Source: Erysipelotrichaceae bacterium
GTDB taxonomy: Bacteria; Bacillota_I; Bacilli_A; Erysipelotrichales; Erysipelotrichaceae
Assembly: GCA_015058845.1 (NCBI GenBank)
Contig: SVBO01000007.1
Location: 1-48,953, forward strand
Direction: 5' to 3'
Length of the DNA stretch: 48,953 nucleotides
Below, piece by piece: positions 16,180-31,019 of the stretch. The position numbers and the translations under genes were made by a program. The notes under the pieces were generated by a model. The model saw only the letters and a list, made by a program, of their open reading frames with translations. It did no database searches and had not been told where the DNA came from. How positions within the stretch are numbered: the first letter of the stretch is position 1; each line of letters begins with the position of its first letter.

Positions 16180-17310
16180 ATGAAATTCATACACTTATCA
16201 GATCTACATATTGGTAAGAGAGTCAATGAATTCTCCATGATCCAAGATCAACAATATATCCTAGAAGAGATCTTGAAAGTAATCGATACAATACATCCCG
16301 ATGGAGTGATCATAGCAGGAGATGTATATGATAAGACGACTCCTAGTGAAGAGGCAGTACGACTTCTCAATCACTTTATATGTCAATTAGCAGACCAAAA
16401 GGTACCTACCTATATCATCAGTGGGAACCATGATTCAGCGGAGAGATTATCCTTTGGAGCTTCCTTGATGGAGGGATCAGGGATCTATATTAGTCCTGTG
16501 TATAATAGTGAAACAGTGAAGTATACATTACAGGATCCTTATGGGGAAGTAGATCTCTATATGCTACCTTTCATTAAACCAGCCCATGTAAGAAGATATT
16601 ATCCTGAAGAGAAGATCGATACATATACTGATGCAGTGCGTGTAGCAATAGAACACATGGAAGTAGATACGACTAAGAGAAATGTGATCATTACGCATCA
16701 ATTCGTGACAGGCGCTAGTAGAAGTGATTCTGAGGAAGTGTCTGTAGGGGGAAGTGATCATGTGGATGTATCGGTGTTCGATAACTTTGACTATGTAGCA
16801 TTGGGGCATATCCATAGACCTCAAAAGATGCAGAGAGAGACTGTGAGATATTGTGGTACCCCTTTAAAGTATTCTTTCTCAGAAGCCGATCATCATAAGT
16901 CTATAACGATCGTAGAATTAAAGGAGAAGGGAACTGTAGAGATCACTACGCAACCACTTATTCCATTACATGATATGCGTATTCTAAGAGGTACTTATAA
17001 TGAGATCGTAAGTAGAGATAACTATGAGAGGACCAATACTGAGGACTATGTGCAAGTGATCCTAACGGATGAGGAAGATGTACCAGATGCGATCAGTCGT
17101 TTACGTGTGATCTATCCAAACATCATGTCACTGAAATATGATAACAAGAGAACACGTTCTAATACGCATGTAGGACAAGCAGAGGATATAGAAAGTAAGA
17201 CTCCTGTAGAGTTATTCCATGAATTCTATCAGAAACAAAATAATCAGGAAATGAGTCAAGAACAACAAGCCTACATTACACAACTGATCGAGAAGATATG
17301 GGAGGAATAA
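16180..17310 (+). CDS. sbcD: SbcD nuclease subunit (Mre11 family)
   Basis: A 376-residue metallophosphoesterase with the full Mre11/SbcD motif series: LSDLHIGKR (metal-binding Asp/His), GDVYDKTTPS, SGNHDSAERL, ITHQFV, and ALGHIHRPQ. It is the two-manganese nuclease half of the SbcCD complex, which cuts hairpins, cruciforms and protein-blocked DNA ends. A C-terminal capping region follows at about residue 265-376. AAGGAGGG precedes the ATG. sbcC starts three bases after the stop, so the two subunits are made together. Confidence 0.95.
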   Translation: MKFIHLSDLHIGKRVNEFSMIQDQQYILEEILKVIDTIHPDGVIIAGDVYDKTTPSEEAVRLLNHFICQLADQKVPTYIISGNHDSAERLSFGASLMEGSGIYISPVYNSETVKYTLQDPYGEVDLYMLPFIKPAHVRRYYPEEKIDTYTDAVRVAIEHMEVDTTKRNVIITHQFVTGASRSDSEEVSVGGSDHVDVSVFDNFDYVALGHIHRPQKMQRETVRYCGTPLKYSFSEADHHKSITIVELKEKGTVEITTQPLIPLHDMRILRGTYNEIVSRDNYERTNTEDYVQVILTDEEDVPDAISRLRVIYPNIMSLKYDNKRTRSNTHVGQAEDIESKTPVELFHEFYQKQNNQEMSQEQQAYITQLIEKIWEE

Positions 17311-17313
17311 GAA

Positions 17314-20067
17314 ATGAGACCTTTACATATAACAATATCAGCCTTTGGACCCTATGCGAATATCACGCAAATAGATATGGAGAAACTAGGAACGAATGGC
17401 CTATATCTGATCACAGGAGATACAGGAGCAGGTAAGACAACGATCTTCGATGCCATTTGTTTCGCATTATATGGACAGCCTAGTGGAGATACTAGAAAGA
17501 ATACTATGCTACGATCTAAATATGCGAATGTAGATACACCTACTGAAGTAAAGTTAGTATTTGAGAATAAAGGTAAGCAATATACCGTAATACGAAATCC
17601 AGAGTATGAAAGACCTTCTAGAAGAGGAAGTGGTACAACTAAACAAACTGCTAAGGCAGAGTTGATATTACCAAGTGGAGAAGTGATCACGCGGGAAAAG
17701 GATGTCACTGAGAAGATCCGTGAGATTATTGGAGTAGATCGAAACCAATTCTCTCAGATCGCTATGATCGCACAAGGAGATTTCCTGAAGTTATTATTAG
17801 CAGATACGCAAGAAAGACAAAAGATCTTCCGTGAGATCTTTCAAACAGGATACTATCAAGTACTGCAAGAGAAACTAAAAGAAGAAACAAGTACACTGAA
17901 GAATCAATTTGAAAGTGCTAGTCAAAGTGTTAGACAATACATTGATGGTATAGTATGTGATGAGGAGTGTGAGTATAGTACATTCCTAGAAGATACACTT
18001 ACAGTAGAGAGATCCTTAGAGATCCTAGAAGCTATCCTCTTACAAGATACAAATAGTCAAGAGAGATTACAGAAAGATATAGAAGCACTAGATACTATCC
18101 TAACAACACTGTATACAGATAAGACAAAGGTAGAGGAATATGTAGCCTTACAGAAGAGGTATGAAACAAATACAGTATTACTTACTTCGAAAGAAGAAGT
18201 ATATAAGACACTACAACAAGAACTAATAACTCTACAAACAAATAGTACTAGACTAGAAGAGAAGAGCAAAGAAGCTACTGCTATAGAAGCACAGTATGGA
18301 GAGTATGAGAGATATGATGCTATTACTAGTAAGTATAAAGAAGAGAAAGGTATCTTAAGAGATCTTCAAAAGGAAGCATTGAAGGATACTGTGAATGAAG
18401 AGTACTTGAAACATGAGTTAGAAACATGGAAAGAAGAACTTAAGAGTATTGAGGGAACTGGTGAGCAAAGAGAGAAGTATGTAGCGAAGAAGAAAGAACT
18501 ACAAGATCAGATAGCGCTTAGAAAAGAGATCGTACAACAGATCGATCATGTAAAGAAGTTAGAATCTAAGTATACTCAGGCGCAAGAAGAGTATCAACAA
18601 TGTTCTCTTACAGCAGAACTACAACAACAAGAATACAATCAACTCAATAAAGCCTTCTTAGATGAGCAAGCAGGGATCTTAGCAGACCAATTAGAAGAAG
18701 GAACTCCATGTCCTGTATGTGGCTCTATCACACACCCACATAAAGCCCAGAAATCTGACAAAGCCCCTACCGAAGAAACAGTTAACCAAGCTAAGCATAG
18801 ATGGGAAAGCTTGCAAAGCGAAGTAGCACTGAAGAGTAAGGAAGCAGGTTCTATCAAGGGCAGCATAGATGCAAGCATCACATATATTGATTCTAAGATC
18901 CCTACAGAGTATTCTCATATGACATATGAGGAGATATGTCATCAGATAGAAGTAGATAACAAGGAACTACTAGAAGATCTAAAGAAGATCGAGCAAGCGA
19001 TCCTAGAAGAAGAAAAGAAGAGTAAGCGTAAAAGGGAGATAGAATCACTGATCCCAGGGAAAGAAAAAGAAGTATCTACCCTGCAAACTAAGATCAGTGA
19101 AAGTGAGAAGAAGATCACTATCTTACAAACCAATATCTCACAATATGAAGTACAATTAAAGACATTAAAAGAAACAATGAAATACCAAAGTAAAACGCTA
19201 GCTCAACAAGCAGTACAGCAACTAAGAAGTGAGGTAGAGAAGGGTCGAAAAGCGATCGAAGAAGCACAGAAGAAAGTTAATGATCAAGAAATAGAGATCA
19301 GTAAGCTTACAGGTGTGATCGAACAATTAACTATCTCATTACAGAAAGATCCCCATATAAATATCGAAGAGTTAGAAACTACGATATTAGAGAATGTACA
19401 AAAGAAGAATATGATCACTGAGAAACTACAAGAAGTGATCACACGGATCACACAGAATACACAGACTAAGAGTAATATCCAAGATAGATCTGAGGAAGTA
19501 CAAAAGATAGAGGAAAAGTATACTTGGGTAAAGGCATTATCGAATACTGCTAATGGAATGATCAGTGGGAAAGAAAAGATCATGCTAGAGACTTATATCC
19601 AAACCACTTACTTTGATCGCATCATAGCCCGTGCCAATACACGCTTCATGATCATGACGAATGGACAATATGACTTGGTGCGTAAAACAACAGCAGAGAA
19701 TCAACGTAGCCAAAGTGGATTAGATTTAGATGTGATCGATCACTATAATGGCACACAAAGAAGTGTTCGAACATTATCGGGAGGAGAATCCTTTAAAGCC
19801 TCTCTATCCTTAGCCCTTGGTCTATCCGATGAGATCCAATCTTCTGCAGGAGGGATCCAATTAGATACGATGTTTGTAGACGAGGGATTTGGTTCCTTAG
19901 ATGGAGATAGTTTACAGCAAGCTATAGCAGCTCTTACTTCTTTGTCTGATGGAAATAGATTAGTAGGGATCATTTCCCATGTTAGTGAATTAAAAGAAAA
20001 GATCGATCATCAGATCATTGTTACGAAAGAGAAGTCTGGTGGTAGTAAGGTAGAGATCATAGCATAG
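17314..20067 (+). CDS. sbcC: SbcC ATPase subunit (Rad50 family)
   Basis: A 917-residue SMC-like ATPase. Walker A is at residues 35-42 (GDTGAGKT) and a Q-loop region follows near residue 140. Two long charged coiled-coil arms (about 180-460 and 490-750) flank a zinc hook CPVCG at about residues 468-472. The C-terminal head holds the ABC signature LSGGES and Walker B with MFVDEGFGSLD. ATP-driven opening and closing regulates SbcD; the hook dimerises the arms. Length and order match Bacillota SbcC. It is the last gene of the unit, followed by a hairpin shared with the convergent HD gene. Confidence 0.95.
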   Translation: MRPLHITISAFGPYANITQIDMEKLGTNGLYLITGDTGAGKTTIFDAICFALYGQPSGDTRKNTMLRSKYANVDTPTEVKLVFENKGKQYTVIRNPEYERPSRRGSGTTKQTAKAELILPSGEVITREKDVTEKIREIIGVDRNQFSQIAMIAQGDFLKLLLADTQERQKIFREIFQTGYYQVLQEKLKEETSTLKNQFESASQSVRQYIDGIVCDEECEYSTFLEDTLTVERSLEILEAILLQDTNSQERLQKDIEALDTILTTLYTDKTKVEEYVALQKRYETNTVLLTSKEEVYKTLQQELITLQTNSTRLEEKSKEATAIEAQYGEYERYDAITSKYKEEKGILRDLQKEALKDTVNEEYLKHELETWKEELKSIEGTGEQREKYVAKKKELQDQIALRKEIVQQIDHVKKLESKYTQAQEEYQQCSLTAELQQQEYNQLNKAFLDEQAGILADQLEEGTPCPVCGSITHPHKAQKSDKAPTEETVNQAKHRWESLQSEVALKSKEAGSIKGSIDASITYIDSKIPTEYSHMTYEEICHQIEVDNKELLEDLKKIEQAILEEEKKSKRKREIESLIPGKEKEVSTLQTKISESEKKITILQTNISQYEVQLKTLKETMKYQSKTLAQQAVQQLRSEVEKGRKAIEEAQKKVNDQEIEISKLTGVIEQLTISLQKDPHINIEELETTILENVQKKNMITEKLQEVITRITQNTQTKSNIQDRSEEVQKIEEKYTWVKALSNTANGMISGKEKIMLETYIQTTYFDRIIARANTRFMIMTNGQYDLVRKTTAENQRSQSGLDLDVIDHYNGTQRSVRTLSGGESFKASLSLALGLSDEIQSSAGGIQLDTMFVDEGFGSLDGDSLQQAIAALTSLSDGNRLVGIISHVSELKEKIDHQIIVTKEKSGGSKVEIIA

Positions 20068-21167: not shown

Positions 21168-22172
21168 ATGAAAGTTTGTCTGTATTTTGAAAATATCAAT
21201 GCGATATCTAAATCTGGCATTGGTCGTGCTTTAAAACATCAGAAAGAGGCATTGACTTCTGCTGGTATCGAATATACTCTAGATCCTGATGATTCTTATG
21301 ATATCTTACATATCAATACAGTAGGAATTACTAGTAGTGCAGTGATCAATAAGGCTAAAGATGCGGGAAAGAAAGTGATCTATCATGCCCATTCTACGGA
21401 AGAAGATTTCCGTAATTCCTTTGTGTTCTCTAATCAATTAGCACCATTAGTACGTCAACACTTGATCAATACGTATTCTAGTGCTGACTACATCATTACT
21501 CCTACTCCGTATTCTAGAGCATTACTAGAAAGTTATGGGATACCTTTAGAGATCTCTGCTGTGAGTAATGGGATCGACCTAACTAGATTTGAATATGATG
21601 AAGAGAAGGTCAAGGCGTTTCGCCGTTATTTCTCATTACAAGAGGATGAGAAGGTGGTACTGTCAGTAGGACTATTCTTTGAAAGAAAGGGGATCTTAGA
21701 CTTCATTGAAGTCGCTAGACATTTTCCGGATGTGAAGTTTATTTGGTTTGGAGAAACTCCTCTATACTCTATCCCTCAAAAGATCAGAGAAGCAGTAGAG
21801 GAAGATCATCCAGATAATGTATTATTCCCAGGGTATGTAAAGGGTCCTATTATTGAAGGTGCCTATATGAGTGCTGATTGCTTCTTCTTTGCTTCCTTAG
21901 AAGAAACAGAAGGGATCGTTGTGTTAGAGGCATTAGCAGGTAAGAGACAGTGTCTATTAAGAGATATTCCTGTATATGATCCTTGGTTAGTGCATGGAGA
22001 ACATTGTTATAAGGGTAAGAATAATGAAGAGTTCATTGATCTATTAGAACAAATATTGAATCATGAGGTACCATACTTAGGAGAAGCAGGATATAAAGTA
22101 GCTCAAGAGAGAAGCATTGCAAGTGTAGGGCAACAGTTAAAGGCTATATACCAAAAGGTATTACGAGGATAA
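21168..22172 (+). CDS. GT4 glycosyltransferase, probable monoglucosyl-diacylglycerol synthase
   Basis: A 334-residue GT-B enzyme. The N-terminal half has NAISKSGIGRALKHQ and a DILHINTVG stretch. The C-terminal donor-binding half has VLSVGLFFERKGILDFIEVA, FPGYVKG and the EX7E-type motif SLEETEGIVVLEALAG. This pattern resembles the alMGS/pneumococcal-type enzymes that transfer glucose to diacylglycerol at the cytoplasmic face of the membrane. A second GT4 enzyme lies two genes downstream, matching a two-step mono- then di-glycosyl lipid pathway, which often supplies the lipoteichoic acid anchor. Sugar and acceptor are inferred from family and context only. Confidence 0.7.
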   Translation: MKVCLYFENINAISKSGIGRALKHQKEALTSAGIEYTLDPDDSYDILHINTVGITSSAVINKAKDAGKKVIYHAHSTEEDFRNSFVFSNQLAPLVRQHLINTYSSADYIITPTPYSRALLESYGIPLEISAVSNGIDLTRFEYDEEKVKAFRRYFSLQEDEKVVLSVGLFFERKGILDFIEVARHFPDVKFIWFGETPLYSIPQKIREAVEEDHPDNVLFPGYVKGPIIEGAYMSADCFFFASLEETEGIVVLEALAGKRQCLLRDIPVYDPWLVHGEHCYKGKNNEEFIDLLEQILNHEVPYLGEAGYKVAQERSIASVGQQLKAIYQKVLRG

Positions 22173-22173
22173 T

Positions 22174-23235
22174 ATGAGGAAAAAGAGAGAGTATATATCT
22201 TACATAGCCTTGATCATAGTATCAGCGATCATTGTACTATACTGTTCCTTCAAAGACTATAAAGAAGATATCATCGAAGTATTGAAGCAGATCACCCCAG
22301 GATATCTAGCCATCTGTATCCTAGCGATCTTACTATATCACTATATCGTAGGCTATATCCTACGCCAATTCGCACTATTCTATAAACCAGACTATACTAG
22401 AAAAGCAGGCTATAAGAATGCCTTGATAGCAGCCTTATTCCATGGTATTACTCCTTTTGCTAGTGGAGGTCAATTCATCCAGTGTTATGTCTTCTATCAA
22501 CAAGGAATAGGGATCTCAGAGAGTGCTAGTATCTTACTCATGGACTTCATTGTATACCAAAGTACCTTGGTAGTATATACCCTAGTATGCATAGTCCTAA
22601 GATACTCTACTTTCTATAATGTGAACACTTCTATATTCACAATAGCCCTTTTAGGCTTTATAATTAATTCATCGATCATTGTAGGTCTATGGGCCTTAGC
22701 TAGATCCTATAAGCTACATACCTGGCTCTCTACCAAGGGGATCTATATCTTAGCAAAACTAAAACTCGTAAAGGATCCAAATAGCAAGATCGAAAGATTG
22801 AATACATATTTAGAAAAATTCAATATAGAAGTAGCTAGACTATCCACTAAGAAGTCATTACTTCTAAAGAGTGTACTCAGCAACATAGTACGCTTGACTT
22901 TATATTATATAATGCCATATCTGTGTGCTAAGGCCTTACAGATTGATATCTTTGCAAATAGTTTATTCGATATCATTGCACTGTCTTCTTTCGTAAGCTT
23001 AGCCAATAGCTTCGTTCCATTACCTGGTGCAAGTGGTGGGGCAGAGGTCTCTTTCACGTTGATGTTTGCGGATATGATGGTACATCAAGATGTGATCGCA
23101 TCTATGTTATTGTGGCGTTTCTTAACATACTACTTTGTTCTATTTATAGGAGGAGTCGTATTTGCTAGATTTGTAAAGGAAAAGAGTTTACGTAAGATCG
23201 AGGAGGAATTGTATGAGGATAGGGTTATTCAGTGA
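22174..23235 (+). CDS. Flippase-like integral membrane protein (LPG-synthase TM region, UPF0104/YbhN type)
   Basis: A 353-residue protein with about eight helices and the family signature of the MprF N-terminal flippase region: GITPFASGGQFIQCYVFYQQG in the first half and a late loop with NSFVPLPGASGGAEVSF (PGASGG). It lacks the aminoacyl-transferase domain of MprF. Such stand-alone proteins are thought to translocate or aid synthesis of glycolipids. Lying between two lipid glycosyltransferase genes, it may move the glycolipid product across the membrane. It begins one base after the previous stop and overlaps the next gene by 23 bases. Confidence 0.75.
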   Translation: MRKKREYISYIALIIVSAIIVLYCSFKDYKEDIIEVLKQITPGYLAICILAILLYHYIVGYILRQFALFYKPDYTRKAGYKNALIAALFHGITPFASGGQFIQCYVFYQQGIGISESASILLMDFIVYQSTLVVYTLVCIVLRYSTFYNVNTSIFTIALLGFIINSSIIVGLWALARSYKLHTWLSTKGIYILAKLKLVKDPNSKIERLNTYLEKFNIEVARLSTKKSLLLKSVLSNIVRLTLYYIMPYLCAKALQIDIFANSLFDIIALSSFVSLANSFVPLPGASGGAEVSFTLMFADMMVHQDVIASMLLWRFLTYYFVLFIGGVVFARFVKEKSLRKIEEELYEDRVIQ

Positions 23236-25207
23236 TACTTATATGCCTGAGATCAATGGAGTCGTGACTTCCATTGTTACATTACAGAAAGAATTAGAGA
23301 AACATGGTCATACTGTATTCGTAGTGACTACAGCCCCATCAGCTCTACATGTGCAGAAAGATGGTAACATCTTACGATTACCAGGAATAGAGATCAAGAA
23401 ACTATATGGCTATCGTATGAGCTCTCCATTCTCTGTAGTAGGACTCAATGATATTGCTACTATGCATCTAGATATCATCCATGTTCATACAGAATTCGGG
23501 ATTGGTACCTTTGCACGTATCGTGTCTAAACTATTATCGATCCCGATCGTAGCTACATACCATACTTTATACGAAGACTATACGCATTATCTAAACTTCG
23601 TGCAATCTGCTACTATCGATAAGACACTACGTTCCCTAGCAGGTAGTTTAAGTAAAGCCTATGGAACTATGTGCCATGAACTGATCGCTCCTAGTGAGAA
23701 GACAAGAGATATCTTGAAAGGCTATGGGGTTGAGAAAGAGATCCATGTGATCCCTACAGGACTTGAATTAAGTAAATTCTCTCGTGCTAACTTTGATAGT
23801 AAGCAACTACAACAATTACGTACTAGTCTTGGGATCCAAGAGCATGAGAAGGTATTACTATTCGTAGGAAGGATCGCAGTAGAGAAAGCTATCGATATGA
23901 TACTACAATCCATGCAGATCCTAGTGACACGCAATGTATCAGTCAAAGCAGTGATCGTAGGAGGAGGTCCTTACCTAGATGAGTTAAAATATCTAGCCAA
24001 AAAACTAGATCTAGTAGATCATGTAGTATTTACAGATAAGAAACCCAATAGTGAAGTACCTATGTATTATGCTATGAGTGATATGTTCGTATCAGCATCT
24101 ACCTCTGAAACACAAGGACTTACATTTATTGAAGCCATAGCTAGTGAGAGCGTAGTCTTTGCGAAAGAGCGAAATATCTTATCCGATATTATTATAGAGG
24201 GAGAAAGTGGGTATTACTTCGATGATTCGAATGAATTAGCAAGAAAGATCGAAGAGCATATCTCACTACCATCACAGAAACAGCAACAGATCGTTAAGAA
24301 GGGTCTAGAGATGATCCAACCATTAGGTAGTCAACCATTCTATGAGGCGGTGTATAAAGTGTATCTAAATGCGATATCTAAACAAAAAGATGAATATGCG
24401 ATCGTCAAGATCAAGATGAAACAATCAAATTACTTCGAAGTAACATTAGAGAGTGCAGAAGAAGAATTAGCACTTATGATCTCTATCGAAAGTTTCTATA
24501 AATATGAGTTGGAGAAAGGCGCTTGTGTTCAACGAGAGATCGTTGAAGAATTCAAGAAAGAAGATTCTACGATCAGATCATATCTAGGCGCTATTCGCTA
24601 TCTAACAGTGAAAGATCGTACGCGTAAAGAGATGTATGATTACTTAAGCCAAAAGACTCCATTAACTATCAAAGAGATCAATCAAATGATCGAGCAATTA
24701 GAAAATATGGGATATATTGATGATGATCGTTATCTACAACAATCTCTAGAAAGCATGAAAGTATCTCTCATGGGTAAGAAGAAGATCAAGGCATCTTTAG
24801 TAAAGAAAGGTATTCCATACGAGAAGATCGATGCAGTATTGCTACAAGAGGATGATGAAGACTTTGTAGAAAGTGCTATCAAGTTGATCGAACAAAGTAA
24901 ATTAATGGAATTAAATAAAAATCTTACGAAAACAAAAGAAGCAATTCAAAGTAAGTTATTGAGAATGGGGTATAATAATGATATTATTGCTGAGGTAATG
25001 CAACGTCTACATCTAGAAAAAGATGAAGAGAAGGAAAGTGTATTACTAAGTAAAGAATATGATAAGCAATTGATTCGATTAAGTAAGAAGTATACTGGGT
25101 TTGATCTAAAGTCTAAGCTGATCACTACATTGATCCGTAAGGGCTTTGAGTATGCTCAGGTAATAGAAGAAGTGGAGAGTAGAAAAGATGAATTTGAAAC
25201 TAATTAA
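23213..25207 (+). CDS. Fusion protein: GT4 glycosyltransferase joined to full-length RecX
   Basis: A continuous 664-codon frame. Residues 1 to about 385 are a GT4 enzyme: GLFSDTYMPEINGVVTSI, HVHTEFGIGTFAR, LLFVGRIAVEKAI, and the EX7E motif SETQGLTFIEAIA. It resembles diglucosyl-diacylglycerol synthases. From about residue 395 to 664 is a RecX homolog with its three-helix repeats: basic KDRTRKEMYDYLSQK, IEQLENMGYIDDDRYL and a final STRKG-like IRKGFEYAQVIE segment. RecX normally modulates RecA and is about 260 residues, so the whole protein is present. AGGAGG lies 7 bases before ATG 23213. No ribosome site is visible before the first in-frame ATG of the RecX part (24415), so a genuine fusion is likely. 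The end overlaps yhaM by 20 bases. Confidence 0.85.
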   Translation: MRIGLFSDTYMPEINGVVTSIVTLQKELEKHGHTVFVVTTAPSALHVQKDGNILRLPGIEIKKLYGYRMSSPFSVVGLNDIATMHLDIIHVHTEFGIGTFARIVSKLLSIPIVATYHTLYEDYTHYLNFVQSATIDKTLRSLAGSLSKAYGTMCHELIAPSEKTRDILKGYGVEKEIHVIPTGLELSKFSRANFDSKQLQQLRTSLGIQEHEKVLLFVGRIAVEKAIDMILQSMQILVTRNVSVKAVIVGGGPYLDELKYLAKKLDLVDHVVFTDKKPNSEVPMYYAMSDMFVSASTSETQGLTFIEAIASESVVFAKERNILSDIIIEGESGYYFDDSNELARKIEEHISLPSQKQQQIVKKGLEMIQPLGSQPFYEAVYKVYLNAISKQKDEYAIVKIKMKQSNYFEVTLESAEEELALMISIESFYKYELEKGACVQREIVEEFKKEDSTIRSYLGAIRYLTVKDRTRKEMYDYLSQKTPLTIKEINQMIEQLENMGYIDDDRYLQQSLESMKVSLMGKKKIKASLVKKGIPYEKIDAVLLQEDDEDFVESAIKLIEQSKLMELNKNLTKTKEAIQSKLLRMGYNNDIIAEVMQRLHLEKDEEKESVLLSKEYDKQLIRLSKKYTGFDLKSKLITTLIRKGFEYAQVIEEVESRKDEFETN

Positions 25208-26144
25208 TGAATTCTGTGAGAATGAGAAGATCGAAACACCTTTACTGATCAAGAATGTAGTAAAGGGAGTAGCCAATAATGGGAAACCTTATTTAAGTGT
25301 CACATTCCAAGATAAGACAGGTACGATCGATGGTAAGGTGTGGGATGCTAGTGGTGATGTTCCTTCTCACTATGGAGTAGGAAAGATCGGGATCGTACAT
25401 GCTGAGGTATTGAAGTATCGTGATGCTTTACAATTAAAGATCTTGAACTTCCAAGAAGTAGATCCAACTAAGATCAATGACATGAGTCGTTTTATTCCTG
25501 TGTCTATGGTAGAAAAAGAAGAGTTAGTGCAAACTGTGACTAAGTATATTGATACGATCCAAGATGAGACATTACACACGATCACCAAGACTATTGTAGA
25601 AGGATGCTTTGAAGAGTTCTTCTCTTATCCAGCAGCTTCTAAGAACCATCATGAATTCATGCATGGTCTAGCAACGCATGTCTATGGTATGTTGAAGTTA
25701 GGAGATGCAATGTGTGATCTATATCCATTATTGAATAGAGATCTACTATATGCTGGTATCATCCTACATGATGTAGGTAAGGTATATGAGTTAAGTGGAC
25801 CTGTGACTACAGAGTATACAATGCAAGGGAAGTTACTAGGACATATTTCTATCATGCAAGCGATCGTATATGAAACGGCTCGTAAGTTAGGCTATGAGAA
25901 TGAGCAAGTGATCTTATTAAGACACATGATCTTATCTCATCATGGGCAATATGAGTTTGGTTCCCCAGTATTACCTATGATCCCAGAAGCAGAGATCTTG
26001 AACTATATCGATAATATCGATGCGCGTATGAATATGTTTACTAAGATCGTAGAACCTTTAGAAAATGGTACATTCTCTGGTAGAAATTTCTCACTAGAGA
26101 ATCGTCAGATCTATAAAGCTAGTTTTGATAAGGAAGATCAGTAA
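25188..26144 (+). CDS. yhaM: YhaM-family 3'-5' exoribonuclease
   Basis: A 318-residue protein with an N-terminal OB-fold (residues about 15-95, with LSVTFQDKTGTIDGKVWD) and a C-terminal HD domain (about 155-280) carrying H..GLATHVYGML, LHDVGKVYEL and LSHHGQYEFGSP. This is the architecture of B. subtilis YhaM, a manganese-dependent RNase and DNase that trims 3' ends. Length is close to the usual 314. The start lies within the end of the RecX-fusion gene, indicating coupling. A terminator follows immediately, its stem containing the stop codon. Last gene of the unit starting at 21168. Confidence 0.92.
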   Translation: MNLKLINEFCENEKIETPLLIKNVVKGVANNGKPYLSVTFQDKTGTIDGKVWDASGDVPSHYGVGKIGIVHAEVLKYRDALQLKILNFQEVDPTKINDMSRFIPVSMVEKEELVQTVTKYIDTIQDETLHTITKTIVEGCFEEFFSYPAASKNHHEFMHGLATHVYGMLKLGDAMCDLYPLLNRDLLYAGIILHDVGKVYELSGPVTTEYTMQGKLLGHISIMQAIVYETARKLGYENEQVILLRHMILSHHGQYEFGSPVLPMIPEAEILNYIDNIDARMNMFTKIVEPLENGTFSGRNFSLENRQIYKASFDKEDQ

Positions 26145-26169
26145 GAGCGTGTGAAAGCATGCTCTTTTT
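26143..26169 (+). terminator. Terminator after yhaM
   Basis: Stem AAGAGCGTG (26143-26151) with CATGCTCTT (26158-26166), one G-U pair, 6-base loop, then a run of five T. The yhaM TAA stop overlaps the stem base. Confidence 0.85.
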
Positions 26170-26327: not shown

Positions 26328-27146
26328 ATGATTATGGCAATCTTAGAAATTCATGACTTACATGTCAGTATCGATAATAAAGAGATCTTGAAAGGGATCG
26401 ATCTTACTATAGAAGAAAATGAAGTACATGCTCTAATGGGACCTAATGGAAACGGGAAATCTACTCTATTAGCAGCCATTATGGGACATCCGAAATATGA
26501 AGTAACACAAGGATCTATCTATTACCAAGGAGAAGATCTATTAGCAATGAGCGTAGATGAAAGAAGTCGTAAAGGGATCTTCTTAGGAATGCAATACCCA
26601 CAAGAGATCCCAGGAGTAAGTAACTCAGATTTCTTAAAAGCAGCTATGAATGCTAGAAGAGAAAAACCTATCTCATTATTCGAATTCTTTAAGTTAATGG
26701 AGAATACAACGAAACAACTTCAAATGAAATCAGATCTAGCACATCGATTCTTGAATGAAGGATTCTCTGGAGGAGAAAAGAAACGCAATGAGATCTTACA
26801 AATGAAGTTACTACAACCTACTATCGCTATGCTAGATGAGATCGACTCTGGGCTAGATGTGGATGCTCTAAAGATCGTAGCCGATACGATCGCTGAAATG
26901 CAAGAAACAAAGAATATGTCGATGTTAGTAGTATCTCACTATGAACGTTTCTATCAACTAGTGAAACCAACTCATGCGCATGTATTAGTAGATGGTAAGA
27001 TCGTAGAGAGTGGAGATGCTTCTTTAGTAGAAAGAATCGATAAGGATGGATATGACTGGATCTATGAAAAGTATCAGATCACATTAAAAGAGAAAGAAAA
27101 GAAGACTGTAGTTTCCCTTGGAAGCTGTGCAGCCCCTAAGAAATAA
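26328..27146 (+). CDS. sufC: SufC, Fe-S assembly ATPase
   Basis: A 272-residue ABC-type ATPase with Walker A GPNGNGKST (around residue 40), the Q-loop, signature FSGGEKKRNEILQ (the KKRNE variant typical of SufC), and Walker B IAMLDEIDSGLD. SufC binds SufB and SufD to form the scaffold on which iron-sulfur clusters are built in the cytoplasm. A short C-terminal tail ending GSCAAPKK extends it about 20 residues beyond minimal members. AAAGGA is 4 bases from ATG 26328 and 10 from ATG 26334; either may be used. It is the first gene of the sufCDSUB operon. Confidence 0.95.
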   Translation: MIMAILEIHDLHVSIDNKEILKGIDLTIEENEVHALMGPNGNGKSTLLAAIMGHPKYEVTQGSIYYQGEDLLAMSVDERSRKGIFLGMQYPQEIPGVSNSDFLKAAMNARREKPISLFEFFKLMENTTKQLQMKSDLAHRFLNEGFSGGEKKRNEILQMKLLQPTIAMLDEIDSGLDVDALKIVADTIAEMQETKNMSMLVVSHYERFYQLVKPTHAHVLVDGKIVESGDASLVERIDKDGYDWIYEKYQITLKEKEKKTVVSLGSCAAPKK

Positions 27147-27952
27147 TGGAATTCAAACAAGTAATCACTGATACCAATGAAGTAGTTCTACAAGAAAGTG
27201 GAACTTACTTATTCCAAATCACTGATCATGCACAGATCCATATCCAAGTCAAACCTAATCTCACAGTCAATCTATTAGTTGAAATAGATCAAAAGGAAGA
27301 CCTTCAGGTATCTATTACAGTAGAACAAGATGCTACATGTCGTGCCTTCCTGATGCATAACACCCAAGGGTATATCGAAGAAACACATACTCTGAAAGAA
27401 AACGCATCCTTATACATTGCCACAGCAGAACTATCTCGTGGTACCATGTCACATAAAGCTACATATAATTTAGAGAAGAGTGGGGCTACATTAGAAGCAC
27501 GCTATGCCTATGTATCTGATGAAGAAGATCGCAAAGAGTTACATGTCTATGCAGATCACCAAAGTCCTAATACTTCTTCTAACTTAGAATTATATGGAGT
27601 GATGAAGAAGAATGCGAAGTTAAAAGCTGAAGTAAGCTCTCATATCGTAAATGGAGCTCACCAAGCAGCCGCTCATCAAACATCACGTATCTTGAACTTC
27701 GATGGAAATGTTTCCGCAGAAGTATCTCCGATCCTATTGATCGATGAAGATGACGTAAGTGCTTCTCATGCTTGTAGTATGGGAGCAGTAGATGAGAATC
27801 ATTTATACTATCTACAAAGCCGTGGATTATCTGCAGACGCAGCCATTGCTTTGATCGTTAACGGATATCTTGCTGTTCTAGCAGAAACATTTACAGAAGC
27901 AGAACTACAAGAAATCATTCTGGAGGAAATACATAAGAAAGCAGGTGTATAG
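27146..27952 (+). CDS. sufD: SufD-like scaffold protein, short form
   Basis: A 268-residue SufB/SufD-family protein, mostly beta-helix, with the C-terminal hallmarks SASHACSMGAVDENHLYYLQSRGLS and ADAAIALIVNGYL. Its position between sufC and sufS identifies it as SufD. Typical Bacillota SufD is about 430 residues; here the N-terminal helical region is missing and the protein starts close to the beta-helix core. No frame for the missing part lies upstream, since sufC ends with a one-base overlap (TAATG). It should pair with SufB and SufC in the cluster scaffold, receiving sulfur from SufS/SufU. Confidence 0.85.
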   Translation: MEFKQVITDTNEVVLQESGTYLFQITDHAQIHIQVKPNLTVNLLVEIDQKEDLQVSITVEQDATCRAFLMHNTQGYIEETHTLKENASLYIATAELSRGTMSHKATYNLEKSGATLEARYAYVSDEEDRKELHVYADHQSPNTSSNLELYGVMKKNAKLKAEVSSHIVNGAHQAAAHQTSRILNFDGNVSAEVSPILLIDEDDVSASHACSMGAVDENHLYYLQSRGLSADAAIALIVNGYLAVLAETFTEAELQEIILEEIHKKAGV

Positions 27953-27954
27953 GG

Positions 27955-29166
27955 ATGGAATATCGTAAAGATTTCCCAATGCTGAATCAAGAAGGAAAGA
28001 ACTTTGTGTATCTGGATAACTCTGCTACCACACTGAAACCATCTTGCGTGATCGATGAAGTAACACGCTATCTCTCTACATGTTCAGTAAACGTACACCG
28101 TGGAGATTATGATCTATCCTATCAAGTATCTCAAGAATATGAAGCAGTGAGAAATACAGTAGCACGCTTCATCAATGCCGCTTCTCCTAAAGAGATCGTG
28201 TATACGCATGGTACTACAGAAGCATTGAATATTATTGCTTATGGTATGGGCGGATTCTTGAAAGAGGGAGATGTGATCTTAACGGATATTGCTGAACATG
28301 CTAGTAGTGTCTTACCGTGGTTTAGAGTGGCTAAAGAAAAAGGTGCTAGTATTGAATACATTCCACTAGATGAGCAAGGAAGGATCACAGTAGAGAACTT
28401 CCAGAAAGCTATGCATCTAGGTGTTAAATATGTATGTATCGCACACGTAGGAAATGTACTAGGGTACACGGCACCGATCCAAGAGATCACAACAATCGCG
28501 CATAACTATGATGCCCTAGTGATCGTAGATGGCGCACAAGCTATTCCTCATCGAAAAGTAGATGTTCAAGCATTAGATTGTGATTTCTATACATTCTCAG
28601 CGCATAAGATGTGTGGCCCCACAGGAGTAGGAGTATTATATGGCAAAGCCAAATACCTATCTCAAATGGAACCTCTTATGCTAGGAGGAGGTAGTAACGC
28701 TCGTTTCGATGCTTGTAGCAACGTATTACTGAAAGAAGCTCCCTATCGCTTTGAATCAGGTACACCAGCTATAGAAGGTGTTCTTGGAATGGGAAAAGCC
28801 ATTGAATACTTAGAAAAAGTAGGAATGGACTATATCCAAGCTAAAGAAGAGAAACTACACAATCTAGCGATCCAAGAACTATCTAAATTAGATAACGTAA
28901 TACTATACAATCCCAAAAGTGATAATGGGATCGTAACATTCAATATCAAAGATGTATTTGCCCAAGACAGTGCCTCATTTCTAAGTACCAAAGGAGTATA
29001 CTGTCGAAGCGGTAATCACTGTGCCAAGATCCTAGTAGATCATCTAGGAACCCCTGCCACAGTAAGAGCCTCTTTCTATTTCTATAACACAGAAGAAGAT
29101 GTTATGCGTTTAGTAGAAGTATGTAAAGAAGCCAATCAGGAGACATGTTTAAATATCTTTTTCTAG
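27955..29166 (+). CDS. sufS: SufS cysteine desulfurase
   Basis: A 403-residue class V aminotransferase-fold enzyme using PLP. Landmarks: THGTTEALNIIA, IVDGAQAIPH, the PLP lysine at Lys218 in FSAHKMCGPTGVGVLYG, and the catalytic Cys356 in RSGNHCAKIL. It removes sulfur from cysteine as a persulfide and passes it to SufU. Type II (SufS/CsdA) features and the gene order support the call. It begins two bases after sufD; the ribosome site (GCAGGTG) is weak, so coupling is likely. Confidence 0.95.
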   Translation: MEYRKDFPMLNQEGKNFVYLDNSATTLKPSCVIDEVTRYLSTCSVNVHRGDYDLSYQVSQEYEAVRNTVARFINAASPKEIVYTHGTTEALNIIAYGMGGFLKEGDVILTDIAEHASSVLPWFRVAKEKGASIEYIPLDEQGRITVENFQKAMHLGVKYVCIAHVGNVLGYTAPIQEITTIAHNYDALVIVDGAQAIPHRKVDVQALDCDFYTFSAHKMCGPTGVGVLYGKAKYLSQMEPLMLGGGSNARFDACSNVLLKEAPYRFESGTPAIEGVLGMGKAIEYLEKVGMDYIQAKEEKLHNLAIQELSKLDNVILYNPKSDNGIVTFNIKDVFAQDSASFLSTKGVYCRSGNHCAKILVDHLGTPATVRASFYFYNTEEDVMRLVEVCKEANQETCLNIFF

Positions 29167-29179
29167 GAGGTAGAGCTAT

Positions 29180-29626
29180 ATGAGTTTAAAAGACAATCCA
29201 GCAATGCTAAGATCCATCATCATGGACCACTATGAATATCCACGTAACCATTCCCTAACAAAAGATGAAACCTATACAAGCAAACACATGGCATCTGCCT
29301 CTTGTATCGATGACATCGAAGTACAATTAAAGATGGTAGATGGGAAAGTAGAAGACATTCGCTTTGATGGAACAGCATGTACGATCGCTACTAGCTCTAC
29401 TAGTATCATGAGTGAACTATTAAAAGGAAGAAGTGAAGAAGAAGTAAAGATGATCATGGATCAATACTTCAATATGATCAATGGTCAAGAATATGATGAA
29501 GAGATCCTACAAGAGGCAGTAGCTTTCTGTAATGTAGGAAGACAAGCAAACCGAATTAAATGTGCAACGATCGGCTGGAGAGCCATTGCAGGTCTAATGG
29601 GTATCAAGGAGTATCAAGATGAGTAA
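29180..29626 (+). CDS. sufU: SufU, sulfur-acceptor partner of SufS
   Basis: A 148-residue IscU-fold protein. Metal and sulfur-transfer residues occur at Cys42, Asp44, Cys67 and Cys128, aligned with Cys41/Asp43/Cys66/Cys128 of B. subtilis SufU. The first motif reads SCIDD where most members read CGD, a small change next to the key cysteine. The C-terminal block [10 protein letters not shown] is canonical. It receives persulfide sulfur from SufS in a zinc-dependent exchange. AGGAGGTAG precedes the ATG. The last 8 bases overlap sufB. Confidence 0.93.
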
Positions 29627-31019
29627 AGAAGATATCATCTTAGAAGATTCTTATAAATACGGATTTCATGACGAAGATGTATCCCTTTACAATACAGGTA
29701 AAGGATTAACAAAAGAGATCATCGAAGAGATATCTAAGATCAAGAAAGAACCCCAGTGGATGTTAGAATTCCGCTTGAGATCATTTGAACAATTTCAGAA
29801 GATCTCTAATCCATCCTGGGGACCAGATCTAAGTGATATCAACTTTGATGAATATACTTACTACATCAAACCAAGTGAGAAACAAGAAAAGAATTGGGAT
29901 GATGTACCAGAAACGATCAAGAATACCTTTGATAGATTGGGGATCCCAGAAGCAGAACAAAAGTTCTTAGCAGGAGTATCTACGCAATATGAATCTGAGG
30001 TAGTGTACCATAACATGTTACAGGAAGTAGAGGAAAAGGGAGTCATCTTCTTAGACACTGACTCAGCACTAAGAGAATACCCGGAACTATTCCGTCAATA
30101 CTTTGGTACGATCGTACCTCCTACTGACAATAAGTATGCAGCTTTGAATAGTGCGGTATGGTCAGGCGGAAGTTTTATCTATGTTCCTAAAGGAGTAAAG
30201 TTAGAGAAACCTCTACAATCCTATTTCCGTATCAATACCGAACAAATGGGACAATTCGAAAGAACATTGATCATTGTAGATGAGGGAGCAGATGTACACT
30301 ATGTAGAAGGTTGTACAGCCCCTAAGTATTCGAAAGACTCTCTCCATGCAGCAGTCGTAGAGATCTATATCCATCCTAATGCGAAGTGTCGATACTCTAC
30401 TGTTCAAAACTGGTCAAGCAATATCTTGAACCTAGTAACGAAACGTGCGAAAGTCATGCGTGATGGTAGAATGGAATGGATCGATGGAAATATCGGGTCT
30501 CATATCACTATGAAGTATCCTGCTTGTGTATTAGCAGAAGAAGGAGCTCGTGGTATGACCATCAGTATTGCCGTAGCAGGAGAGAATCAGATCCAAGATG
30601 CAGGAGCTAAGATGATCCATCTAGCCCCTAATACATACAGTAATATTATCTCTAAGTCATTATCTAGAAAAGGTGGGGCTGTAAACTATCGTGGTACAGT
30701 ACACTTTGGTAAGAAGGCAGCCTATGCGAAGAGTAAGATCGAGTGTGATACATTGATTCTAGATAATATTTCTAAGAGTGATACGATCCCTACGAATCGT
30801 ATTGAGAATACAACTGGCATCATTGAACATGAAGCCACTGTTAGTAAGGTAAGTGAAGAACAATTATTCTATCTAATGTCTAGAGGATTAACGAAATCAC
30901 AGGCTACAGAGATGATCGTTATGGGATTCTTAGAACCATTTACTAGAGAGTTACCAATGGAATATGCAGTAGAATTAAATCAGTTATTGAAACTAAATAT
31001 GGAAGATTCGATTGGATAA
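29619..31019 (+). CDS. sufB: SufB Fe-S scaffold protein
   Basis: A 466-residue protein of normal SufB length. It has the N-terminal helical part ([18 protein letters not shown]), then the beta-helix with [23 protein letters not shown] and GTVHFGKKA, and a C-terminal [23 protein letters not shown] block conserved in SufB. With SufC and SufD it assembles nascent clusters. AAGGAG lies 8 bases before the ATG inside sufU. A strong terminator follows at once, closing the operon. Confidence 0.96.

Follow-up and report, generated by a model that had tools for sequence, protein, structure and literature searches.

A glycosyltransferase joined to RecX across the order Erysipelotrichales, with a probable origin in the merger of overlapping operon genes

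Introduction

In Firmicutes, RecX is a full-length protein of three repeats, as seen for Bacillus subtilis RecX/YfhG (264 residues, PMC3527212) and for the Lactobacillus structures 3d5l and 3e3v, and its gene generally lies away from recA (PMC1193525). The B. subtilis protein is not SOS-induced, and its foci are also observed at the cell poles of competent cells (PMC3527212). In glycolipid synthesis, the GT4 enzyme AlMGS of Acholeplasma laidlawii, which binds membranes (PMC6506492), represents the type of glycosyltransferase described by the NCBIfam model NF049988. Here we describe a gene in which these two families, both already known, are joined. It lies in a window of 48,953 nucleotides, the whole stretch of DNA analysed, from an Erysipelotrichaceae bacterium (assembly GCA_015058845.1, contig SVBO01000007.1). 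What is new is the fused architecture and its history; we found no published RecX-glycosyltransferase fusion in the open-access literature, and domain-architecture databases may list the architecture without comment.

Like the RecX of other Firmicutes, the RecX half of the fused protein is full-length with three repeats, has the N-terminal strands and the C-terminal extension, and is encoded apart from recA as the sole RecX of its genome; unlike them, it forms the C-terminal part of a glycosyltransferase and has no start of its own. Similarly, the GT4 half resembles the AlMGS type in matching the whole length of its model, in its intact EX7E motif and in adjoining a second glycosyltransferase of the IagA/BgsA type, but differs in scoring below the equivalog cut-off, in carrying RecX at its C-terminus and in that its substrate is a putative one. 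The locus illustrates how a hidden ribosome site in an upstream gene, together with a 23-nt overlap, can become an order-wide protein with two functions, and precursor-like, fused, re-split and half-lost states are all present among living relatives, which include common gut commensals and Erysipelothrix. It also cautions that retention of a fusion across an order need not imply a functional link, and it makes testable the question of RecA regulation by a RecX joined to a membrane enzyme.

Results

A single frame contains a GT4 glycosyltransferase and a RecX

Positions 23213-25207 of the forward strand form one ATG-to-TAA frame of 664 codons, encoding 664 amino acids, with no internal stop (Table 1). 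An earlier note on this DNA had read an uninterrupted GT4-RecX frame of this length, and the open reading frame, Pfam and NCBIfam all bear this reading out. The two-domain layout likewise stood, while the end of the GT4 part, which had been put at about residue 385, proved to lie slightly further on, at about residue 393. Within the first half, Pfam placed Glyco_transf_4 at residues 14-187 and Glycos_transf_1 at 202-364.

Table 1. Positions of the fused gene's parts and of its operon neighbours in the window
Feature	Position	Strand	Basis
IagA/BgsA-type glycolipid glycosyltransferase, operon partner	21168..22172	+	NF053513, 516.4 bits (above cut-off 460)
LPG_synthase_TM flippase-like membrane protein, 23-bp overlap with fused gene	22174..23235	+	PF03706, 110.9 bits
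GAGGAGG ribosome site of fused gene	23200..23206	+	read in sequence; strong anti-Shine-Dalgarno pairing typical of the class of GT starts
GT4 half, residues 1-393, alpha-monoglucosyldiacylglycerol-synthase-like	23213..24391	+	NF049988, Pfam GT4 domains, fold
EX7E motif of GT4 active site, E299 and E307	24107..24133	+	conserved in 121/121 fused proteins
Linkerless junction, GT helix 373-392 into RecX strand 394-403	24329..24421	+	structure model, length invariance, background-level ribosome site
RecX half, residues 394-664 and stop	24392..25207	+	NF010733, RecX_HTH1/HTH3, profile match, fold
YhaM-like 3'-5' exoribonuclease (OB fold and HD), 20-bp overlap with fused gene	25188..26144	+	NF010007, 366.8 bits (below cut-off 460)

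The NCBIfam MGlcDAG synthase model spans the whole GT4 half at 251.7 bits and, because this score misses the equivalog cut-off of 400, we call the half synthase-like. Its best fold matches were MshA, BshA and PimA, all with the GT-B fold, and residues H117, R220, K225, E299 and E307 are invariant in all 121 fused proteins compared. The most likely role of the GT4 half is to transfer glucose to diacylglycerol on the inner side of the membrane, for which the neighbouring IagA/BgsA enzyme is supportive only.

For the RecX half, RecX_HTH1 (46.1 bits) and RecX_HTH3 (33.4 bits) exceeded the Pfam cut-off of 26, RecX_HTH2 (17.8 bits) fell below it, and the NCBIfam RecX model PRK14135 (NF010733) matched residues 398-652 at 141.4 bits, below its cut-off of 240. 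Since none of the sampled members of the class reaches 240 bits, this cut-off is narrow and not decisive. A RecX profile made from 45 fused relatives matched solved RecX chains with a best E-value of 2.4e-33. Because the best 50 matches in a fold search with the full-length model were all glycosyltransferase structures, the RecX half was modelled separately (pLDDT 93), and this model yielded six significant PDB matches, all of them RecX and including 3d5l, 3e3v, 3c1d and 3dfg, with TM scores of 0.75-0.86 by target. When viral proteins were searched by structure, no match was obtained. Residues D504, G586 and G644 of the RecX half are invariant in the same 121 proteins. A second RecX, which the earlier note had suggested looking for, was not found across the genome (1.75 Mb, 97% complete). 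The note's picture of a RecA modulator attached to a glycolipid enzyme is confirmed and concerns the only RecX of the cell. Of the 20 genomes in which RecA was looked for, 17 have it above cut-off, among them the window's own, which has one.

The RecX half, the sole RecX of the cell, most likely still acts on RecA by binding its filaments and modulating them. It could instead be argued that the glycosyltransferase has taken over the RecX fold as an accessory domain, and that the fold has given up its role on RecA, given that the half has diverged and misses the RecX_HTH2 and NCBIfam cut-offs. We consider this extremely unlikely: sampled class members miss the NCBIfam cut-off as well, profile and fold match solved RecX, the half is the only RecX in a cell in which RecA is present, and RecX outlives the GT half and is under purifying selection, as described below.

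The fusion is found across an order

RecX was detected in 57 of 60 relatives, in 51 of which it lies inside a long open frame (641-794 codons) that corresponds in size to the fusion. Across the order Erysipelotrichales it was present in 297 of 316 genomes, and about four fifths of the roughly 150 matches listed from these 316 genomes sit in frames of fusion length. We read 125 fused loci, which include type-strain, named and complete genomes; the named bearers include Longicatena, Amedibacillus, Traorella, Bulleidia, Thomasclavelia and Erysipelothrix, and also Faecalicoccus, Massilimicrobiota, Absicoccus, Holdemanella, Breznakia and Sharpea. The idea that a sequencing or assembly error joined two genes, raised by the earlier note in the form of a lost stop codon, is refuted by the recurrence of the same frame in these relatives and can be dismissed for practical purposes. 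Outside Erysipelotrichales, there was no fusion among the matches listed, roughly 150 in each case, from class-wide and phylum-wide samples, the listed RecX frames outside the order having at most 349 codons; the phylum-wide sample is drawn nearly entirely from the same class, and absence of the fusion elsewhere in bacteria is not thereby proved.

Individual loci depart from the common pattern. The RecX half is strongly diverged in L039/L157 (G010), and in L122, where the contig ends, it is interrupted by an in-frame stop. Two nearly complete relatives (G016, G269) gave zero candidates for RecX, for RecA and for the GT4 model, which would mean either that recA has genuinely been lost or that the data are incomplete.

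The joint is invariant in length and the internal start has been lost

In the structure model of the whole protein (pLDDT 86.6, pTM 0.63), the last GT helix continues into the first RecX strand with no linker. Only 0-2% of the 121 fused proteins differ in length in the windows that span residues 361-405, compared with 31-56% for the most variable windows elsewhere. This invariance favours a single origin of the fusion, and it may in addition point to a constrained geometry. If a protease cut the fused chain after synthesis, GT4 and RecX would be released to act singly, and a fusion throughout the order would be compatible with independent functions of the halves. However, the joint lacks both insertions and an exposed linker, and the passage from helix to strand is modelled at high confidence, which makes cleavage very unlikely. 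Among 25 non-overlapping pairs of relatives, those that allowed dN/dS to be computed gave 0.01-0.25 in either half; both halves are under purifying selection and have been kept functional.

A separate RecX product from an internal start, another possibility that the earlier note had left standing, found no support. Anti-Shine-Dalgarno pairing of the best in-frame start close to the junction averages -1.70 kcal/mol over 107 fused loci, as against -1.65 kcal/mol for control windows taken at random inside the same genes; the corresponding values are -8.04 at GT starts and -6.23 at the separate RecX starts of the outgroup family f8. With pairing at the junction no stronger than background, the internal ribosome site has decayed, and a separate RecX made from the fused genes is unlikely; the GTG within the last GT helix of the window itself, which scores -6.5, is an isolated case. 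Matches to the LexA box GAACNNNNGTTC before the operon were no commoner than expected by chance, the nearest upstream (20625) having one mismatch. Since the RecX gene of Firmicutes is in general remote from recA (PMC1193525) and B. subtilis RecX is not SOS-induced (PMC3527212), the loss of its own start need not harm the regulation of RecX.

An unfused outgroup operon resembles the likely precursor

The fused gene belongs to a tight operon, in which the IagA/BgsA-type glycosyltransferase is followed by the flippase-like protein, the fused gene and the YhaM-like exoribonuclease. This gene order is common to many relatives, and YhaM follows RecX in nearly all relatives read. In f8, a family of the same class, the same genes occur in the same order with the same GT4 end point, but GT4 (about 391 amino acids), RecX and YhaM are separate genes, and RecX has a ribosome site of its own; the LPG_synthase_TM gene precedes GT4 wherever enough sequence was read. 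There, RecX occupies the +1 frame relative to GT4. In 21 of 25 loci it begins with GTG (once ATG) at a point exactly 23 nt short of the 3' end of GT4, and in most cases this start is closely preceded by GGAGGT or GAGGT, encoded by the GT4 codons Glu-Val-Tyr. The distance from the Val-Tyr codons to the RecX core is 30 nt in the window and 25 nt in locus L192, as counted by eye across a variable stretch whose alignment is uncertain; this is a net +2 modulo 3, the change that would join the two frames. The f8 arrangement is likely to represent the precursor of the fusion.

The explanation we favour, and regard as probable, is that of one bifunctional protein with a single origin in the ancestor of Erysipelotrichales, by merger of overlapping operon genes, whose halves act independently. 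Before the merger, recX would have begun within GT4, 23 nt ahead of its 3' end and one frame off, behind a ribosome site written in GT4 codons. A small frame-changing indel would have joined the frames, after which decay of the internal ribosome site would have left RecX to be made only as the tail of GT4, in a 1:1 ratio with it and apart from recA. In the present-day operon, the GT4 half would attach glucose to diacylglycerol on the inner side of the membrane, a further sugar would come from the IagA/BgsA neighbour, and the flippase-like protein would carry the lipid outward, while the RecX half, working independently, would still modulate RecA filaments as the cell's only RecX. The fusion would persist because both halves are usually needed and because separating them again takes a new start and a new ribosome site. 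Counted against this explanation are the two missed NCBIfam equivalog cut-offs, the differing placement of family f2 between trees, and the joint itself, which has remained invariant in length over hundreds of species even though re-splits occur, and which could reflect selection for the joined form.

Glycolipid synthase genes overlap or adjoin recX in families f7, f9, f13 and f18 as well, although the synthase there is a UgtP-like GT28, of another family than GT4, and is unfused; it lies immediately before a separate RecX, or overlaps it, in L043, L044, L047, L048, L180 and L184. A rule that RecX always lies beside a glycolipid gene would hold in these families and, with GT4, in f8, but it is broken by RecX genes that overlap or adjoin a YitT family gene (L045, L185, L051, L179), prfB (L050, L186, L189) or an S41 peptidase gene (L181, L182, L183). 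Such unrelated upstream genes occur in other families of the class, and RecX accordingly seems to be translated after whichever gene precedes it.

Losses and re-splits separate the two halves again

Living relatives also provide a natural dissection of the fusion. The GT part is reduced yet still joined to an intact RecX in L033 (G015), L065 (G405) and L067 (G362), and it has gone from the locus, leaving RecX followed by YhaM, in the genus g3 group and in G005, G023 and G026. No GT4 of the fused-gene family remains in G023, G026, G455 or G460, whereas in G005 a GT match lies on a different contig. In L059, L060, L062 and L036, the fusion has been split again into overlapping genes. Through these changes, the RecX-YhaM pair was kept. 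A HAD-IB hydrolase gene takes the place of the glycolipid genes before RecX-YhaM (L032, L034, L035) or before the fused gene (L088); the latter locus, from the genus of G023, retains the fusion behind the same HAD gene, giving a before-and-after pair.

In the RecX tree, the GT-reduced, GT-lost and re-split loci fall among fused relatives, and the fused label undergoes six changes, five of them forced by well-supported branches. This larger RecX tree sets family f2 apart from f1, whereas in a cleaner tree a branch of support 90 divides these two families of the order, taken together, from the rest; the trees come from quick searches, and many of their branches are weak. Loss of the GT is mostly accompanied by absence of the flippase-like protein, which is present in 1 of 8 genomes without the GT and in 9 of 13 with it (Fisher p 0.024, uncorrected for shared ancestry). 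Genome G034 had appeared to be a case in which the RecX half alone was lost; its GT (L172) groups with the RecX-less L164 of another genome rather than with its fused congener L091, and is probably a paralogue.

The repeated loss of the GT with RecX kept argues against a required link between the two, and these later losses of the partner suggest that the halves still do separate jobs. The earlier note had proposed a link from lipid status to DNA repair, a new use of the RecX fold or placement of RecX at the membrane. The first, taken as a requirement, is argued against by the intact RecX found beside YhaM after GT loss or truncation and by the re-splits, and the second by the same re-splits and by RecX kept intact beside YhaM where the GT is gone; the evidence needs none of the three. 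If the fused GT4 binds the bilayer as AlMGS does, RecX would be carried to the membrane, a placement that may or may not be put to use.

A selected coupling would go further, with the GT4 half holding RecX at the membrane, or the lipid state altering the availability of RecX, so that recombination is tuned there, for example at sites of DNA uptake or replication. The linkerless joint of invariant length, retention of the fusion across an order, membrane binding by GT4 relatives of the same type (PMC6506492) and the polar RecX foci of competent B. subtilis (PMC3527212) all speak for such a coupling; several lineages keep RecX with a GT stub or with no GT at all, re-splits occur, and in other families RecX overlaps the unrelated YitT, prfB and S41 peptidase genes, and on balance we hold it to be unlikely. 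Both a membrane-tethered RecX and a lipid-to-repair link are possible, the one positive sign of either being the length-invariant joint. It seems quite unlikely to us that the sole RecX of Erysipelotrichales serves as a membrane-attached domain of a lipid glycosyltransferase, with RecA control exerted at, or responsive to, the membrane and with a rigid joint setting the geometry.

Genes around the operon

A terminator-like hairpin (26143-26166) lies after the YhaM-like gene. Downstream of this, at 26328-31019, are frames that, by eye, resemble a Suf iron-sulphur assembly operon (SufC, SufD, SufS and two more), and upstream of the glycolipid operon, at 16180-20067, are SbcD-like and SbcC/RAD50-like DNA-repair genes.
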